Source: Desulfoluna sp.
GTDB taxonomy: Bacteria > Desulfobacterota > Desulfobacteria > Desulfobacterales > Desulfolunaceae
NCBI RefSeq assembly: GCF_030145185.1
Contig: NZ_JAQYWB010000007.1
Coordinates: 1-64,000 of the forward strand
DNA length: 64,000 nucleotides
Direction: 5' to 3'
The number at the start of each line of letters is the position of its first letter. The stretch's first letter is position 1. Both the position numbers and the translations under genes were made by a program. Below the pieces are notes generated by a model. It saw nothing but the letters and a program-made list of their open reading frames with translations, was not told the DNA's origin and ran no database searches. This document shows, in pieces, positions 35,509-62,533 of this stretch.

Positions 35509-35660
35509 TAACCCGGCTCGCCCGAAGGGTGAGAAAATCAAACAGAATACCGTGGATTACATTTTGCATTTTTGAAACGACTGAAAATATTTCTGCAAAG
35601 AAGTGTAATGACGAATTATTCCTTAGTGCTGATTGTTTTCTCATGAAATATCCGGGTTAA
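35509..35660 (+). repeat. family A element, copy A6 (short form)
   Basis: TAACCCGG joins directly to CTCGCCCGAAGGGTGAGAAA, exactly the sequence expected if the hairpin module had been excised between its two CCCGG-like arms. The right end is CTCATGAAATATCCGGGTTA. The remaining 35366-35814 contains no gene. Confidence 0.85.
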
Positions 35661-35814
35661 ATGAAAGATGGGGATTTTACATGCCCTCATCGTCCCTCCT
35701 GAATGCGATATATCCTCGAAAATGAGATCAGTCCTGTCTGCAGAAAACGGAAACGGTTCAGCACATCCAATGGCCGTGTCCACTGGAATAAACCCATGAA
35801 AGAGGTGCAGCGTC

Positions 35815-38692: not shown

Positions 38693-38943
38693 CACCCGGA
38701 TATTTCATGAGAAAACGATCGATTCGAAGAAATAAACATTTATTGCAATGAGTTATTGCGGAAAATTCAGTTATTTCAAAAATACAAAATGTAATTCACG
38801 ATTATCTGTTCGCTTTTCTCACCCTTCGGGCGAGCCGGGTGCACTCATCTGCTGCGTTATCAGAGCTTTGAGGTAAACCACTACATCTGCAGCTTTGATG
38901 CCTTGCAGATAAGCGCATCCGACTCGTGAAATATCCGGGCTAA
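38693..38943 (-). repeat. family A element, copy A7 (long form, inverted)
   Basis: 251-bp inverted long form with the hairpin module (GATGCCTTGCAGATAAGCGC). It ends immediately before repeat C3 (38948). No gene lies in 38506-39388. Confidence 0.85.
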
Positions 38944-42837: not shown

Positions 42838-42850
42838 GGGAATTGCCTTT

Positions 42851-42965
42851 GTAACTATTTAGCTCCAAAAAAAGCCTGCGGCGGCAAAGTGTGCCATCTT
42901 GAAAGCAGATATCGGATGTGAATTAACCCACGGTTCTCGGGTAAATTACATCCGTTTTTTTTCGT
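42851..42965 (-). repeat. family B remnant
   Basis: GTAACTATTTAGCTCCAAAA is the complement of a B right end, followed by the inverted GCCTGCGGCGGCAA...TTGAAAGCAG core and a degenerate interior up to about 42965. A perfect 10-bp hairpin (ATTGCTCTCG/CGAGAGCAAT, 42970-43000) follows, without a T-run. Confidence 0.6.
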
Positions 42966-43419
42966 TTCATTGCTCTCGTCTCATAAGCCGAGAGCAATAG
43001 TAATGACTGTTGTGGATGGCCTCATGATAACTTAAAAATGTACGATTTGAGATTCATAAGTAATATAGCAAGGAGGGGTTTGAGATATGATTTAATCACA
43101 AATAGATCGCGAATGCTGAATATGATTTTATCGTCTTTTCTCCATAGAACCACATTCTAAGCTCTTGATAATTGTTTCTATCTTTGCTATTTTTCAATCC
43201 ATTAGGTAAGCACAAACTCTGGTGCCCCCCGGTTTGACCGTTTCACCAGTGGCCATTGAACATCAAAATTCGATGTTATGACTAAAAAACAGGCATTTCT
43301 AAAATGCCAATGATTATCCGCTACGGAACAAACTGTAAGATTTAATGGCCAACGTTCTATCCGTCCATTAGCCCGAGCTGAGCCGTGATAAATACGTCAG
43401 GATAAATTATAGCGTTCGT
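42966..43419. other. intergenic, AT-rich, no gene seen
   Basis: Apart from the hairpin near 42970-43000, nothing is recognisable. Composition shifts to AT-rich, and this continues through the next two genes. Confidence 0.5.
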
Positions 43420-43563
43420 TTAGCCCGAAGGGTGAGAAAATCAGACAGAATACCGTGGATTACATTTTGTATTCTTGAAACAACGGAAAATATTGCTGCA
43501 AAGAACTATAATTACAATTTATTCCTTAGCCCTGATTGCTTTCTCGTGAAATATCCGGGCTAA
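43420..43563 (+). repeat. family A element, copy A8 (left end truncated)
   Basis: Starts TTAGCCCGAAGGGTGAGAAA and ends CTCGTGAAATATCCGGGCTA. The left terminal repeat and hairpin module are collapsed to TTAGCCCG. Confidence 0.8.
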
Positions 43564-43641
43564 ATCGCTTTGGACAGCCATCAAGTCTGCGTTTTGACAA
43601 GATGTCATAACTTAAAAGAGCAAATACAAGGAGTCTATGGA

Positions 43642-44229
43642 ATGAAGAAGTTTATTTTAATGTTTCTTTTAATCTTAATACCCATTGAATCGCCTGCAGC
43701 GATGTGGACAAAACAAGTCGACGCAAAAAGCGCTGATGATCTATTTGATGGTTATTATATACAAACGACGGATAATAAATTTTATGAACTGAATATGGGG
43801 TGGGACGTGTACCCCTCCAGATTTATGGACTGTTATGATGCTGAAAAATTCTCTTCCAGAGAAGAAGCAAGAAAGAGTCGTAGTCACATATGTTGCCTCA
43901 ATCCTAAAGATAGCTCACATGAAATTTATAAAACAGACATTTCTGCAGATAAAATAAAATTTTTTATTTATGTGCCAGATAGTAGTAACCATGATTGGAT
44001 GGGTTTGAAAATGAGAGAACTCAAGAAAAAGAATGTTTATTTTCGTGATGACGAAAAAGTAAGTCGATTTACTTTTTCTGAAGACAAGCGATATGATATC
44101 TTTTCTAAAGAACGAAAAAGAAATGGAATTATAATTATTAAATTGAACGAACATCCAAAATCAGAAGTTCCTTACATTATAAGCTATGTTGGTGAGGGTA
44201 GATACAGCTTTCCCATCCAGTTTAAGTAG
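43642..44229 (+). CDS. exported hypothetical protein
   Basis: I do not recognise this 195-residue protein. It has a signal peptide (MKKFILMFLLILIPIESPAA) and a charged mature part with four cysteines (C in MDCYDAEKF, CC in HICCLNP) that may form disulfides. AAGGAG eight bases before the ATG supports translation. The gene is markedly more AT-rich than the core-metabolism genes, with AAA/ATA-rich codon use, and is bracketed by family A copies A8 and A9, which suggests acquired DNA. It is upstream of the caspase-lipoprotein gene but separated by about 590 bp. Confidence 0.65.
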   Translation: MKKFILMFLLILIPIESPAAMWTKQVDAKSADDLFDGYYIQTTDNKFYELNMGWDVYPSRFMDCYDAEKFSSREEARKSRSHICCLNPKDSSHEIYKTDISADKIKFFIYVPDSSNHDWMGLKMRELKKKNVYFRDDEKVSRFTFSEDKRYDIFSKERKRNGIIIIKLNEHPKSEVPYIISYVGEGRYSFPIQFK

Positions 44230-44596
44230 TATCTGCTGAGTTTCTGTTTTATCGGCGAAAAGAACCTGTTGAATGGAGTCACTTCCAACCGCTGTGTTCT
44301 ATTTTTGAAACAGGTCGGTGGACTTTTTGGCCTCTCAAATTGAGAGGCTCACCGAATTAAAGATCCTCGAGACGGAAAGAAGGTTTGTGTGGCACATTCA
44401 CGACGTATCGTTTCAAACTTTTGTTGAATCGATTGCCGTGCCTCCTGAAGAATCAGTGCTGGATTTTGATGGCACTGATGATCCACATTATTGGGATCAA
44501 GTCGGCATATTCTGCAACTCATATTAGGACCATTATTGGTTTTTCCACTGGATGTATCTTGTAGCACACAGCTGCTTGTACCGAATCTCAGGCTGT
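44230..44596. other. intergenic, unassigned
   Basis: A 69-codon frame at 44318-44527 (MDFLASQIERLTELKILETE...) has no ribosome site or recognisable family; it may be a decayed gene. Nothing else was seen. Confidence 0.35.
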
Positions 44597-44600
44597 AGTG

Positions 44601-44741
44601 GCCCGAAGGGTGAGAAAATCAAACAGAATACCGTGGATTACATTTTGCATTTTTAAAACGATTGAAAATATAGCTGCAATATACTGTAATTGCTGGCCAT
44701 TCCTTAGTCCAGGTTGTTTTTTCATGAAATAATCGGGTTAG
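44601..44741 (+). repeat. family A element, copy A9 (left end truncated)
   Basis: Starts GCCCGAAGGGTGAGAAAATC and ends TTTCATGAAATAATCGGGTT. Same truncated form as A8. Confidence 0.8.
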
Positions 44742-44820
44742 GTGCAGAAATAGATCGCTTTGAGCGGTTAACAACCAAGCCTCCTGTTTGACGGGAGGTT
44801 ATGATTTTCGAGGACGTATT

Positions 44821-47800
44821 ATGCAACGAGCACTCAGTCTATTTATCGTAGCTGTTCTTTTCATCACTCAAGGTTGTATGTCAAGCCGCATGAATTTGAC
44901 CTCAATTAATAGTAGCAGAACAGACACCCCAAGTATGTCACTGCTTATTGAAGAAGGCTTAAACTCCGGGTGGAAGCACCATACAAGCCATGATGGTAGC
45001 TTGATAGCTGTCTACAATGGTAAAGATATAGTTATTAAATCAATATCAACCGGAAAGACAATTAAGCGCCTTAAAATAGACACCTATTTATTTGCGTTCG
45101 CATCGGCAGCAAATTTTTTCTATGTGAAAGAAAAAGGCAAACTACATGTCTGGAATATTAATGATGGCTGGAAGCACAGCTCCTTTAAAATACCTAAAAA
45201 TATAGTCGCTAAATTTTACGTCAGCCCTTCTGGACAGAAGGTATTCGTAAAATCATGGAGCAAAAATGCAACGGCCTATATTTATTCCATAGATGGTAAG
45301 AAACTGAGTAGTTTTCCTTTCTTGTATAAGAAGAATGAACTAACAGAAAGGGTTGTGTTCTCCGGTGAGAATGAGCTGTTGACAACCTATAAATATAGAT
45401 TGCTTAGAGTGACATTTGGGGCAAACCGTCACTCCATACGAATTGTTTATAATGGAAAGTCTAAAGCGAGGTTTAAGGACTTTGATAAACAATTCTACAG
45501 TAACGGCGAAGTTAAGGGGATTAGCCGGAACGGGAAATATTTTGCAACAGGTTACATTGATCCACATAAAAATGTGAATATGAAAGGAGAGACAACAACC
45601 ATTAAGATAAGAAGGTGTCGTGATGCCAGGGTTGTACGCCGTTTTACCGTGAATAAAAATTATGATGAGCGTCCTTCTCAAAATTCAGCCATATCCATCT
45701 CCAATAATGGCCGGTATATCGCAGCCAGCGTGAATGGGATACCGACAATCTTTCACAATAAAACCGTTAAAAAGTTCAAAGATCACAGAGGTGGAGATAT
45801 TGAATTTATTGAAGGTCTGTCACTGGCACTGGTGATCCCGGATAAAGGGGCATCGATACCATCGGTACTGTACGATATAGATAACGAGTTTGTTGTTACT
45901 GAATTCAGTCCCGGGCAGCGTCACGTTAAACGGCTGGTTTTTAATGATAAAACCAGTGATCTGTTTATGGATGGTTATCGGGTTAACCTGTCAACCGGTG
46001 CTTATATTCCATACCCATATAAAGATGGGCAGATTATAGTCAACAGCCTTGGAGAAAGCCTCTCGGTTACCACACGTGGTGAAATCTATAAATTAAATAA
46101 CTTATCGTGGAAGCGTGTTTATGCATTAAATAAGAATCATATATATAAAGGGTTAGGGGATAAGTTTTTCGATTCTCTTGAATTTCACTATGAGGTATCT
46201 GGTGATAAAAATACCTTGGTCGCCATATCATCCATCGGGGACATGTTTGTTATTGACCTAAGGAATTTGATAGTAAAAGAAGGGCTGCCAAGATTTTCAT
46301 CACCATATCAATATACAGACCTTGCTTACTATCGTCGAGTTGATGGGCGGTTGGGGCGCTACGTTTTCAATGAAAACGGATCTTTTATTGGGTTTAAAGA
46401 CTATCCTGGGACCTCAGCCTTACTTCAGAAGTACAAAGACTATTTAAAGACAACATTTAATCCTCTGAAACATGGTTTAAATTCCAATTCGCGTGTTGCG
46501 GCCCTGTCTCCCAACGGCCGTTACCTGGCGGTCTCTGAATCGGTAACCGGCCATCAGCCCGCAAATGCCATTCGTGTTTTTGATTTGAAATTTAACAAAG
46601 TTATGGCCTCTTTTGATGCACAAGAATTTGACTTTAAATCAAATAGGAGCATGCTGGTTGATTATCTGGAATTTACCCCAGATGGAGAATGCCTCGTTGC
46701 TGTCTCCCAGGGGGGGACACTCTACAAAAAAAAGGGACAGCCGCAAGTTTGCAATGATATTAAGGTTTGGCGAGTCTCCAATGGTGATGTTGTTTATACC
46801 CCCCGGGGAAAGATGGGGGTCCCCCTCTTTGGTTTGGTTGTCTCCCTTGACTCTAAACAGGTCGCTGTGCGTGGAGAATCTGGCGGACTAAGAGTCCTTG
46901 ACCTCAACTCAAAAAGGGTTGAAGTGTTTAACGGAGTCGACTTGAGAGGGGTTACAGCCCTGAAGGCAACCCGCAGTGGGTTTGTTGTCGGTTTATCGGA
47001 TGGGTCTTTCTATGATGTGAATAGCAACAGGCATGTGCATGGCTACTTCAAAGAAAAGATCACTGACATCATCGATTTGGGTGATCGTTTGGCTATTTCA
47101 AGTGATGATGGCTCTGTCAAAGTCTTTGATGCCGGACCAATGAAGTACCTGTACAGCGTTGTCTCTCTTTTAAAAGACAACTACTTGATTGCAAACAGTG
47201 ACAACTATTACATCTCTTCACCGGAAGCCAGTAAGTATGTCCGCTTTAAAGAGGACGATACGTTCTATTCATTTGAAGATTATGACTTAACGCGCAACCG
47301 GCCAGATCGAGTTTTGAATACGATAGGCTTAACCTCTCCTGGGGTTATTGATTTTTATCAAAAATTACATAAGCGAAGAAATCAGCTTTATAATCAGGGC
47401 AATCTATCCGCAGAGTCGGGAAGTGATCTGACACAAACGCGTCCCGAAATTGATATTACCCATGAGGTTCCGTTTGTTGTCAACACGAGCAAGTTAAATT
47501 TGACGTTTGATTATGATGGGCATGGTGTTGGAATCGCAGCTGTTCACGCCCGCGTAAATGGGGTCCCACTGTTTGGGGCAACGGGGAAAAAGATCTCGGT
47601 AAGTGCAGCATCACAGAATAAAATGTCAGTGCCATTGGTTTTTGGCCGTAACAAAATTGATCTGTTTGCCATCGACAACAAGGGTGTGCAGTCAAAAAAA
47701 TCAACGGTATTTACCAATAACATCCGAGAGCAGGTCACAAATCTGTATGTTGTGAGTATTGGTGTTTCTGACTACACTGATAACAGACTCGACTTAAAGT

Positions 47801-48567
47801 ATGCAGCAAAGGATGCTCACGATGTTGCCTCGTCACTGCTTCGCCAATATGATCAGAAAACAATCAACAAAGCTTATAAATTGGTCATCACCGATAAAAG
47901 GGCGACAAAGAAAAATATTCTTACCAAAACCCGTTCATTCCTGGCTAAGGCGAAGTTCAATGATATTGTCGTGCTGTTCCTGGCTGGGCATGGCTTTAGT
48001 GAAAACGGCCAGTATTTCTTTGCTTGTAATGACATCAACATAGATAAAGTTGTTGAATCGGGGCTTCCATTCGACACCTTGGATGCGCTACTAAGCAGTA
48101 TTACCCCCAACAGAAAGCTCATGTTATTTGATACCTGCTTTAGTGGCCAGGAAGATCTCTATAACTCGGCAGAATCAAAGCGGCTGTTAAGCAGCAATGT
48201 GCGTTCCAGAAGTATTCCGATCAGTCGGGGATTAACGCTTAAAAAGGGGCCTTCGATACGATCTGAGATTGTAGAACGATTGGCATTTAATAACCTGAGT
48301 CAGGGCTCTGGCGCCATTGTGTTATCCAGTTCGGGTCAGCAGGAATTCAGTTATGAAGATGGCACTTACAAAAATGGTATCTTTACCTATTCACTACTCA
48401 AATCATTGAGTGATAAAGCATCGGATTTGGATGGAGATGGAAGCCTTTCCATTAGAGAAATCGAAACGTATATTTCGAATAAAGTTGAAGAGTTAACCTC
48501 AGGGCAACAACAGCCTAATATTCGTAATGAAAATGTGAATATGAATTTTGAGTTGGTTTCGCAATAG
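44821..48567 (+). CDS. lipoprotein with beta-propeller-like region and C-terminal caspase (C14) domain
   Basis: A 1248-residue protein. The start at 44821 follows GAGG and gives a lipoprotein signal, FIVAVLFITQGC (lipidated C19, Met at +2). Residues about 45-830 contain recurrent WD40-like blades with motifs such as SPSGQKVFV, ALSPNGRYLAVSE, FTPDGECLVAV and VSLDSKQVAVRG ending in KVWRV/RVFDL strands. After a linker with an Ig-like stretch (HEVPFVVNTSKLNLTF), the C-terminal caspase fold follows: VVSIGVSDY, catalytic histidine in LAGHGF (H1057) and cysteine in DTCFSG (C1106), then a late SSSGQQEFSYED...GIFTYSLL block typical of C14. It would be a membrane-anchored periplasmic or surface protease. 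The gene is AT-rich and isolated, ending in a strong terminator. Confidence 0.85.
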   Translation: MQRALSLFIVAVLFITQGCMSSRMNLTSINSSRTDTPSMSLLIEEGLNSGWKHHTSHDGSLIAVYNGKDIVIKSISTGKTIKRLKIDTYLFAFASAANFFYVKEKGKLHVWNINDGWKHSSFKIPKNIVAKFYVSPSGQKVFVKSWSKNATAYIYSIDGKKLSSFPFLYKKNELTERVVFSGENELLTTYKYRLLRVTFGANRHSIRIVYNGKSKARFKDFDKQFYSNGEVKGISRNGKYFATGYIDPHKNVNMKGETTTIKIRRCRDARVVRRFTVNKNYDERPSQNSAISISNNGRYIAASVNGIPTIFHNKTVKKFKDHRGGDIEFIEGLSLALVIPDKGASIPSVLYDIDNEFVVTEFSPGQRHVKRLVFNDKTSDLFMDGYRVNLSTGAYIPYPYKDGQIIVNSLGESLSVTTRGEIYKLNNLSWKRVYALNKNHIYKGLGDKFFDSLEFHYEVSGDKNTLVAISSIGDMFVIDLRNLIVKEGLPRFSSPYQYTDLAYYRRVDGRLGRYVFNENGSFIGFKDYPGTSALLQKYKDYLKTTFNPLKHGLNSNSRVAALSPNGRYLAVSESVTGHQPANAIRVFDLKFNKVMASFDAQEFDFKSNRSMLVDYLEFTPDGECLVAVSQGGTLYKKKGQPQVCNDIKVWRVSNGDVVYTPRGKMGVPLFGLVVSLDSKQVAVRGESGGLRVLDLNSKRVEVFNGVDLRGVTALKATRSGFVVGLSDGSFYDVNSNRHVHGYFKEKITDIIDLGDRLAISSDDGSVKVFDAGPMKYLYSVVSLLKDNYLIANSDNYYISSPEASKYVRFKEDDTFYSFEDYDLTRNRPDRVLNTIGLTSPGVIDFYQKLHKRRNQLYNQGNLSAESGSDLTQTRPEIDITHEVPFVVNTSKLNLTFDYDGHGVGIAAVHARVNGVPLFGATGKKISVSAASQNKMSVPLVFGRNKIDLFAIDNKGVQSKKSTVFTNNIREQVTNLYVVSIGVSDYTDNRLDLKYAAKDAHDVASSLLRQYDQKTINKAYKLVITDKRATKKNILTKTRSFLAKAKFNDIVVLFLAGHGFSENGQYFFACNDINIDKVVESGLPFDTLDALLSSITPNRKLMLFDTCFSGQEDLYNSAESKRLLSSNVRSRSIPISRGLTLKKGPSIRSEIVERLAFNNLSQGSGAIVLSSSGQQEFSYEDGTYKNGIFTYSLLKSLSDKASDLDGDGSLSIREIETYISNKVEELTSGQQQPNIRNENVNMNFELVSQ

Positions 48568-48574
48568 ATAAAAA

Positions 48575-48606
48575 GAAAGGCAAATATTTTATATATTTGC
48601 CTTTCT
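48575..48606 (+). terminator. hairpin terminator after the caspase gene
   Basis: Perfect stem GAAAGGCAAATAT / ATATTTGCCTTTC with a 6-nt TTTATAT-type loop, eight bases after the stop. The following T-run is short (CTTTCTC), so efficiency is uncertain. Confidence 0.6.
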
Positions 48607-48700
48607 CAATGGTGCCTGTGGCCTCTCGTAAAAAGGGGAAAAATTGACCGGCCACGCAGCGCTGAACCTTTTGAATCGATTTTCAGAATAGCCTCTCCCT

Positions 48701-48745
48701 TAAAAAAAAAGAAAACAGGCGGACTCTGGGAAAGTCCGCCTGTTC
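48701..48745 (-). terminator. rho-independent terminator, minus strand
   Basis: Stem AACAGGCGGACT / AGTCCGCCTGTT; on the minus strand it is followed by TTTTCTTTTTTTTT. It would stop transcripts from the AGPS-like operon that escape the first terminator at 49127-49170. Confidence 0.75.
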
Positions 48746-48873
48746 TCTAAGGGGGGAATGCTGTTGATGAGGGGAATTACTTTAAGATGTAATATATGCG
48801 AAAAATGGAGACGCGTCTATGAAGTGAAAGGCTCAAATTTATGGGGGGTATTCCTGGGAAACGGGAAAAAGTG

Positions 48874-48964
48874 GGTGAATGGTGAGTAGGGAATAGTGAG
48901 TGGTGAATAGTGAGTGGTGAATGGTGAGTAGGGCATAGGGAGTAGGGCATAGGGAGTAGGGAAG
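48874..48964 (+). repeat. heptamer tandem array H4 (13 units)
   Basis: Thirteen 7-bp units in one register (GGTGAAT, GGTGAGT, AGTGAGT, AGGGCAT, AGGGAGT), alternating in pairs. It shares unit types with H3 on the complementary strand. No gene lies in 48568-49171. Confidence 0.95.
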
Positions 48965-49040
48965 GGGGGGGCATTTTGTGCTGAAAAGTACAAAAGGGCC
49001 GACCCATCAGCGGATGTGGTCGCCCTGAGGAACGAAGGGC

Positions 49041-52565: not shown

Positions 52566-52817
52566 TAACCCGGATATTTCATGAGAAAACGACCATACCA
52601 AAGCAATAATACGTTATTACAGCGTGTTACCAAGAAAGATATAGACATTTCAAAAATACAAAATGTAATTCACCGTTTTCTACTCGCCTTTCTCACCCTT
52701 CGGGCGAGCCGAGTGCACCCATCTTCTGCGTTATCAGAGCTTTGAGGTAAACCACTACATCTGCAGCTCTGATGCCTTGAATATGGATGCACTCGACTCG
52801 TGAAATATCCGGGCTAA
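52566..52817 (-). repeat. family A element, copy A10 (long form, inverted)
   Basis: 252-bp long form with both ends intact (TAACCCGGATATTTCATGAG; CTCGTGAAATATCCGGGCTA), lying between the divergent kinase operon and the FadR-type gene. Confidence 0.88.
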
Positions 52818-60823: not shown

Positions 60824-60977
60824 TAACCCGGATATTTCACGAAGGGTGGGAAGGGTGAGTAGAAAAAGGTGAATTACATTTTGTATTTTTGAAACGACTG
60901 AAAATATTACTGCAAAGAACTGTTATTACAAATTATTCCTTACTCCTGATTGTTTTCTCATGAAATATCCGGGCTAA
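60824..60977 (+). repeat. family A element, copy A12 (short form)
   Basis: TAACCCGGATATTTCACGAA ... CTCATGAAATATCCGGGCTA, 154 bp, without the hairpin module. Confidence 0.88.
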
Positions 60978-61024
60978 GGAGCTTTCCTCCTTGTCTGCCC
61001 TCCATTCAGGCTGAATAGTTAATG

Positions 61025-61771: not shown

Positions 61772-62024
61772 TAACCCGGATATTTCACGAGTCGGGTGCG
61801 CTTATCTGCAAGGCATCAGAGCTGCAGATGTAGTGATTTACCTCAAAGCTTTGATAACGCAGCAGATGAGTGCACCCGGCTCGCCCGAAGGGTGAGAAAA
61901 GCGAACAGATAACCGTGAATTATATTTTGTATTTTTGAAAAAACTGAATTTTTCGCAATAACCAATTGCAATAACTATTTATTGCTTTGCGTCGATCCTT
62001 TTCTCATGAGATATCCGGGCTAAC
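61772..62024 (+). repeat. family A element, copy A13 (long form)
   Basis: 253-bp long form. The hairpin module runs from CGAGTCGGGTGCGCTTATCT to GCAGATGAGTGCACCCGGCT, whose arms are complementary. It joins head-to-tail with A14, sharing CTAA. Confidence 0.92.
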
Positions 62025-62272
62025 CCGGATATTTCACGAGTTGGGTGCGCTCATATGCAAGGCATCAGAGCTGAAGATGTAGTGGTTTACCTCAAAGCTC
62101 TGGTAACGCAGCAGATGAGTGTACCCGGCTCGCCCGAAGGGTGAGAAAATCAAACAGAATACTGTGGATTACATTTTGCATTTTTTAAACGACTGAAAAT
62201 GTTACCGCAAAGAACTGTCATTACAAATTATTCCTTAGTCCTGATTGTTTTCTCATGAAATATCCGGGCTAA
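62021..62272 (+). repeat. family A element, copy A14 (long form)
   Basis: 252-bp long form in tandem with A13: CTAA at the junction serves as the end of one and the start of the other. The left modules of A13 and A14 are nearly identical, but the right halves differ (CAATAACCAATTGCAATAAC versus AAAATGTTACCGCAAAGAAC), so they are two separate family members rather than a fresh duplication. Confidence 0.92.
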
Positions 62273-62533
62273 AGAGTATCCGAAATTATAGTATATCAAT
62301 CGTCGTGTGCTCTTTTTGTGGTAAAAATTGTCCTCTTTAAGCCTCATGATTTCAGTCGGATGGGTGACCATGCGCCTGTATTTTACAGCTTGATAATATA
62401 TTGTTTCTATGCTGCGGGATCGATCGATGTGATGCCTTTGTTTTTGCTTGTCGTCTTTTGTTCAAGAAACAATGGGACTGTTGATTCTCGTGAGCTCGTA
62501 ATTCGCGGGCCATTATCGGGTAAGGAGTTAAAT

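Follow-up and report, generated by a model that had tools for sequence, protein, structure and literature searches.

The locus and its setting

The gene described here occupies positions 44821..48567 on the + strand of the window, the 64,000-nucleotide stretch of Desulfoluna DNA that was analysed, and its translation is a predicted lipoprotein of 1248 amino acids in which a WD40-like region is followed by a caspase domain. As a preliminary description of this DNA had claimed, the large reading frame is open throughout, from an ATG at 44821 to a stop codon ending at 48567, and by eye the start codon is preceded by a GAGG and a seven-base spacer. The gene lies in an AT-rich stretch (42838..48691) flanked at one end by the methylmalonyl-CoA mutase and MeaB genes and at the other by a gene for an FAD-linked oxidase, with a GC content of 0.37-0.45 across 43000-48500 compared to mostly 0.50-0.61 on the flanks. 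Upstream of the caspase gene, the stretch carries an orphan gene (43642..44229, + strand) for a 195-amino-acid protein that looks exported from its signal-peptide-like N-terminus and has no Pfam match. The far edge of the stretch repeats the 3' end of meaB imperfectly, over 38 nucleotides at 84% (48654..48691, + strand).

In one genome of the genus, G003, the two flanking sides are only about 0.4 kb apart and enclose DNA that is 86% like window positions 48707-48845, and the gene-carrying stretch is thus extra relative to that genome. The distance from meaB to the FAD-oxidase gene is 6.3 kb in the window, 8.7 kb in G001 and 39 kb in G005, while in G002 the region is split over contigs. The duplicated meaB 3' end raised the idea that the AT-rich stretch marks an attachment site. 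No second copy of this end was seen in G001 or G005, whose gaps were covered (that of G002 was covered in part), and a role as a general integration site is unsupported; G003 is uninformative on this point because the query missed that genome's own meaB end. In G001 an OmpA-family gene lies between meaB and the FAD-oxidase gene (gaps compared in L094-L097 and L100).

A dispersed repeat of 140 nucleotides, longer in some forms, is found at 43423-43562, 44601-44740, 35520-35662, 62132-62273, 60840-60985 and 61883-62023, with minus-strand copies at 38695-38831 and 52566-52705. Scoring 40 of its 373 candidate stretches gave at least 42 matches across the genome, and G002 has it as well. Its right end reads AAATATCCGGGYTA in most of 33 copies, and in two the left end is approximately the inverse of this (TAACYCGGATATT). 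We considered the copy upstream of the gene as an integron attC site and rejected this assignment, since the dispersed positions and inverted ends better fit a MITE-like element; Rfam gave no match to the repeat. Downstream of the gene, 48874-48971 holds a 14-nucleotide head-to-tail repeat of the GGTGAATGGTGAGT type.

The caspase domain

The C-terminal part of the protein, about residues 974-1248 (47740..48564, + strand), is certainly a C14 caspase domain: the Pfam model Peptidase_C14 scores 65.7 bits over residues 980-1239, above its cut-off of 21.4 (E 6.4e-18). A GHG motif from residue 1056 and DTCFSG from residue 1104 place the catalytic dyad at H1057 (47989..47991, + strand) and C1106 (48136..48138, + strand), with D1104 two residues N-terminal to the cysteine. 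Among solved structures, the closest to the modelled domain are the MALT1 paracaspase (Z 23.6), Arabidopsis metacaspase 4 (Z 22.5) and Geobacter GSU0716 (Z 22.1), followed by yeast-type metacaspases (Z 19-20), the structure aligner having been limited to Foldseek's top 1000 chains. The caspase fold and the H1057/C1106 pair named in the preliminary description are thus both in place. MALT1 and the metacaspases, which share this fold (Z 19-24), are eukaryotic and carry other partner domains. Arginine/lysine cleavage is the specificity of paracaspases and metacaspases, and the conserved aspartate at position C-2 together with the similarity of fold suggests that the C14 domain probably has the same P1 preference and cleaves after Arg or Lys.

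The dyad is intact not only here. Across 55 aligned rows, one of them the window protein, the cysteine is invariant (55/55), the aspartate at C-2 is present in 54/55 and the histidine is invariant too (55/55), the last partly by construction since one of the two search patterns held the histidine; the cysteine was in neither pattern. Both residues are likewise invariant in a second alignment of 24 rows, which adds little because most of its rows were selected by a pattern requiring both. Across 79 loci encoding relatives, the histidine motif occurs in 79/79 (again partly by search construction) and the DxCxxG motif in 78/79. This conservation argues against the idea that the exported protein has a caspase domain without proteolytic use, kept for binding or for structure, a reading that we regard as unlikely even though dyad substitutions have been described among bacterial forms (PMC3501461; PMC6426788). 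The linker between the p20 and p10 parts is richer in Lys and Arg than the remaining domain in only 17/55 rows, which does not support a Lys/Arg-rich self-cleavage linker as a general feature.

The WD40-like and Ig-like regions

The N-terminal half, about residues 45-790 (44953..47190, + strand), is a WD40-like region of perhaps two propellers. The match to Pfam WD40 reaches 24.6 bits and so falls below the cut-off of 27. A motif marking blade starts is repeated at residues 56, 135, 235, 294, 563, 619, 675, 717 and 761, and taken alone it is weak evidence because the motif also matches at residues 286, 293 and 790 and at residue 1060 within the caspase domain. The preliminary description had called for structure prediction. 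In a model of residues 49-1248 built from the 55-row alignment (mean pLDDT 64.6), ten-residue blocks mostly score 73-98 in the Ig-like and caspase domains, 35-45 in the p20-p10 linker and anywhere from 22 to 89 in the propeller part. Residues 38-801 modelled without an alignment gave a poor result (pLDDT 39.2), and the alignment of the propeller part alone (A7) was too poor for folding.

The N-terminal part of the alignment-based model superimposes on single WD40 propellers with Z 16.0-16.6 and an rmsd of 3.7-4.3 over 267-296 residues, and on tandem WD40 propellers with Z 16-17 and a poor rmsd (9 and above). Tandem WD40 proteins make up most of the best Foldseek matches, at low TM-scores (0.12-0.20, normalized by query length), and at E 0.1 the full-length sequence has no match among solved structures. 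Because the alignment-based model matches solved WD40 propellers, we consider that this is likely a WD40-type propeller region with degenerate blades. The architecture first proposed is accordingly borne out for the export signal and the caspase, while its WD40-like blades stand as a likely assignment, matched by the model at Z of about 16-17 and by Pfam just under the cut-off.

The propeller region is followed by a linker (47191..47430, + strand; SDNYYISSPE...NRPDRVL) that by eye corresponds to a block of the form TPxGYYDASPG...YRPDVI in relatives. An Ig-like beta domain would then span about residues 871-973 (47431..47739, + strand). The Ig-like stretch of the preliminary description is recovered as modelled strands at about residues 876-967 (block pLDDT 67-91), but not by Pfam, whose Ig models gave no match to the window protein at E 1; the Big_7 model is matched by 11 of the 48 relatives scanned.

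Export signals, relatives and proposed function

The N-terminus, MQRALSLFIVAVLFITQGC-M, reads as a signal peptide (residues 1-18; 44821..44874, + strand) ending in the lipobox I-T-Q-G-C19, followed by Met. Lipoboxes are judged by a rule of the PS00013/PS51257 type, and the predicted lipidation site at C19 (44875..44877, + strand), also recognized in the preliminary description, fits it on direct reading and passes a scripted version, with Q at -2 not being the commonest residue.

How usual such signals are was assessed with a home-made rule. It accepts a protein if, reading from any start within the first 90 codons (proteins of the order) or the first 70 (the 79 relatives), it shows either a match to the lipobox pattern or a hydrophobic segment that is free of charges and preceded by a basic residue. 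The order is probably Desulfobacterales, two of its sequences being identical to ones of known name. The sample of 71 C14 proteins from it comprised 17 from the genus and family (all those found, in five of the seven genomes), 48 hand-picked among the matches listed from 76 genomes, five from the window's own genome and the window protein itself. Without the window protein, 44 of the 70 have a signal peptide by this rule, 19 a lipobox and seven neither; with it, 64/71 pass as exported and 20/71 as lipobox proteins, compared to 31/77 and 7/77 among the remaining ORFs of the stretches that carry them (Fisher p 9e-11 for export), figures to be read with the rule's high background and with rows that are non-independent, several coming from one genome and part being hand-picked. 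An earlier control (47/99) was less clear-cut because it still included some C14 ORFs, which were then removed by position and blastp. The genus and family proteins divide into nine with signal peptides and eight with lipoboxes. The window's own genome (96.9% complete) yielded six C14 proteins, and each of them passes as a lipobox protein, the least sure being the one in L059, with its Cys at position 35 of the best start; of the ORFs in the window itself, 12/35 pass.

Relatives from many phyla tell a similar story. Ten of the 79 are open at the 5' end and were excluded; 50 of the remaining 69 pass (46 with signal peptides, four with lipoboxes), and nine of the 19 failures show a signal peptide by eye. 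In the control for these loci, which includes overlapping shadows, 68/216 other long ORFs pass. The statement that WD40-caspases are usually cytosolic, made in the preliminary description, is therefore unsupported for this group. Since most relatives carry export signals by this simple rule, the window protein is typical in having one, and what distinguishes it from clade mates with readable N-termini is the predicted lipid anchor rather than export.

These relatives were obtained with the caspase-domain alignment A3, which gave 141 confirmed stretches, the best 80 of 141 being kept (79 loci); scanning genomes with the one protein alone as query had confirmed no relative. Proteins combining WD40 and C14 domains are spread over many phyla, mostly with export signals. 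Among 48 scanned with Pfam, 48/48 match Peptidase_C14 and 47/48 match WD40 (E 0.001), while 24 proteins from the window's own genome and order match C14 in 24/24 cases, as expected from the way they were chosen, and WD40 in 16/24. Near the host, the five genus and two family genomes have no relative at E 1e-10. Besides the window protein itself, only partial relatives were found in the class (9/147 genomes at E 1e-20, own genome counted) and phylum (4/395 at E 1e-25, own genome counted). None of 57 pattern-matching stretches in viral contigs was confirmed, and plasmids gave one partial match at E 1e-10, which covers 36% of the query with 28% identity.

A tree of the caspase domain (104 rows) groups the window protein with L102, L103, L104, L105, L107, L117 and L082 (SH-aLRT 99); its exact sister is unsure because the tree was built by a quick method and long branches meet. 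The exported proteins of L102-L180, mostly about 960-1100 amino acids, have the domain order, export signal, dyad and linker block in common with it. However, their WD40 repeats are canonical and their signal peptides mostly ordinary, whereas in the window protein the blades are divergent, the length exceeds that of most and a lipobox is present. L082, an 808-residue protein of the same order, is 27-30% identical over residues 560-1243 or 766-1243 and shares the long p20-p10 linker, but is shorter, with a smaller WD40 region and by eye an ordinary signal peptide. The five other lipobox C14 proteins of the own genome (L056, L059, two in L060 and L061) share with the window protein the lipobox by rule and the C14 domain; the four included in the tree all fall in separate branches. 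The protein thus appears to be a divergent representative of the exported caspases, a group that is widespread, and not something new.

We favor, with moderate confidence, a model in which the protein is a Sec-exported, envelope-anchored caspase that cuts after Arg or Lys. We envision that after Sec export a lipid on C19 would anchor the protein to the outer face of the inner membrane or to the outer membrane, where the WD40-type region could bind a periplasmic or surface partner, as a scaffold or a sensor. Between it and the C-terminal caspase domain, the Ig-like domain may serve as a spacer; the caspase domain would be an active cysteine protease using H1057 and C1106 on envelope or secreted proteins, a plausible role that the preliminary description also suggested.

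A more specific proposal, which we consider improbable, is that of a surface-exposed outer-membrane lipoprotein that acts on extracellular proteins and is activated outside the cell by calcium binding to the p10 part. By the Lol rule of E. coli, a member of another phylum, Met at +2 would direct the lipoprotein to the outer membrane, the placement suggested in the preliminary description, and residues 1202-1213 (48424..48459, + strand), in the p10 part, form an EF-hand-like loop, DLDGDGSLSIRE, that may bind calcium. Control by calcium through this loop is possible, but the loop is rare, occurring by pattern in 6/70 C14 proteins of the order and by a looser pattern in 8/79 relatives, and the steps required for surface export were not seen here. 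We give least credence to a reading in which the caspase is cytosolic and belongs to a death or anti-phage system, its hydrophobic N-terminus being no more than a membrane anchor: a PADLOC caspase model does match (46 bits) and reviews link caspase homologues with WD40 to cell death (PMC7475262), but the lipobox directly follows the hydrophobic stretch and recurs in the five other C14 proteins of the genome, PADLOC found no defence gene among seven neighbouring proteins (its sole match being MeaB, at 21 bits) and the NCBIfam model for EACC1-associated caspases scores 72.4 bits, under its cut-off of 140.

The pairing of WD40 with a caspase domain is itself already known. A survey of 1463 genomes counted 671 prokaryotic caspase homologues, 73 of them with WD40 and 104 with transmembrane helices, and pointed out that helices at the N-terminus may be signal peptides (PMC3501461); the cyanobacterial review describes some with WD40 outside and the caspase inside the cell (PMC7475262). 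Discussion of bacterial caspase homologues in the literature, to the extent consulted, is largely about programmed death; exact wording for secreted or periplasmic caspases had no match in the literature searched, and the idea may nonetheless be published.

Taken singly, the gene is otherwise unremarkable, a divergent member of its group; what merits proper testing is the frequent export of C14 proteins in the order. Should most caspases of the order indeed be exported, the place to look for what they cleave would be the envelope and the extracellular space, and this shift in outlook can be tested. More tentatively, we speculate that the order's caspases might form an extracytoplasmic protease system serving an envelope function and not cell death. 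On this view genomes would pick up several exported, mutually unrelated caspases that bear sensor domains, those held by this lineage having been turned into lipoproteins.

The window locus is without any of the neighbours that recur at the relatives' loci. There, some relatives sit next to genes of envelope type, in keeping with the proposed envelope role: one ORF cluster is found in 10/79 loci (five members checked, all DUF4384), a second in four (two checked, both CHASE2 with a cyclase) and a third in two (one checked, FecR). In L108, L110, L113, L127, L137 and L180 the relatives adjoin DUF4384, CHASE2-cyclase or FecR-TPR genes, possibly a recurrent envelope set.
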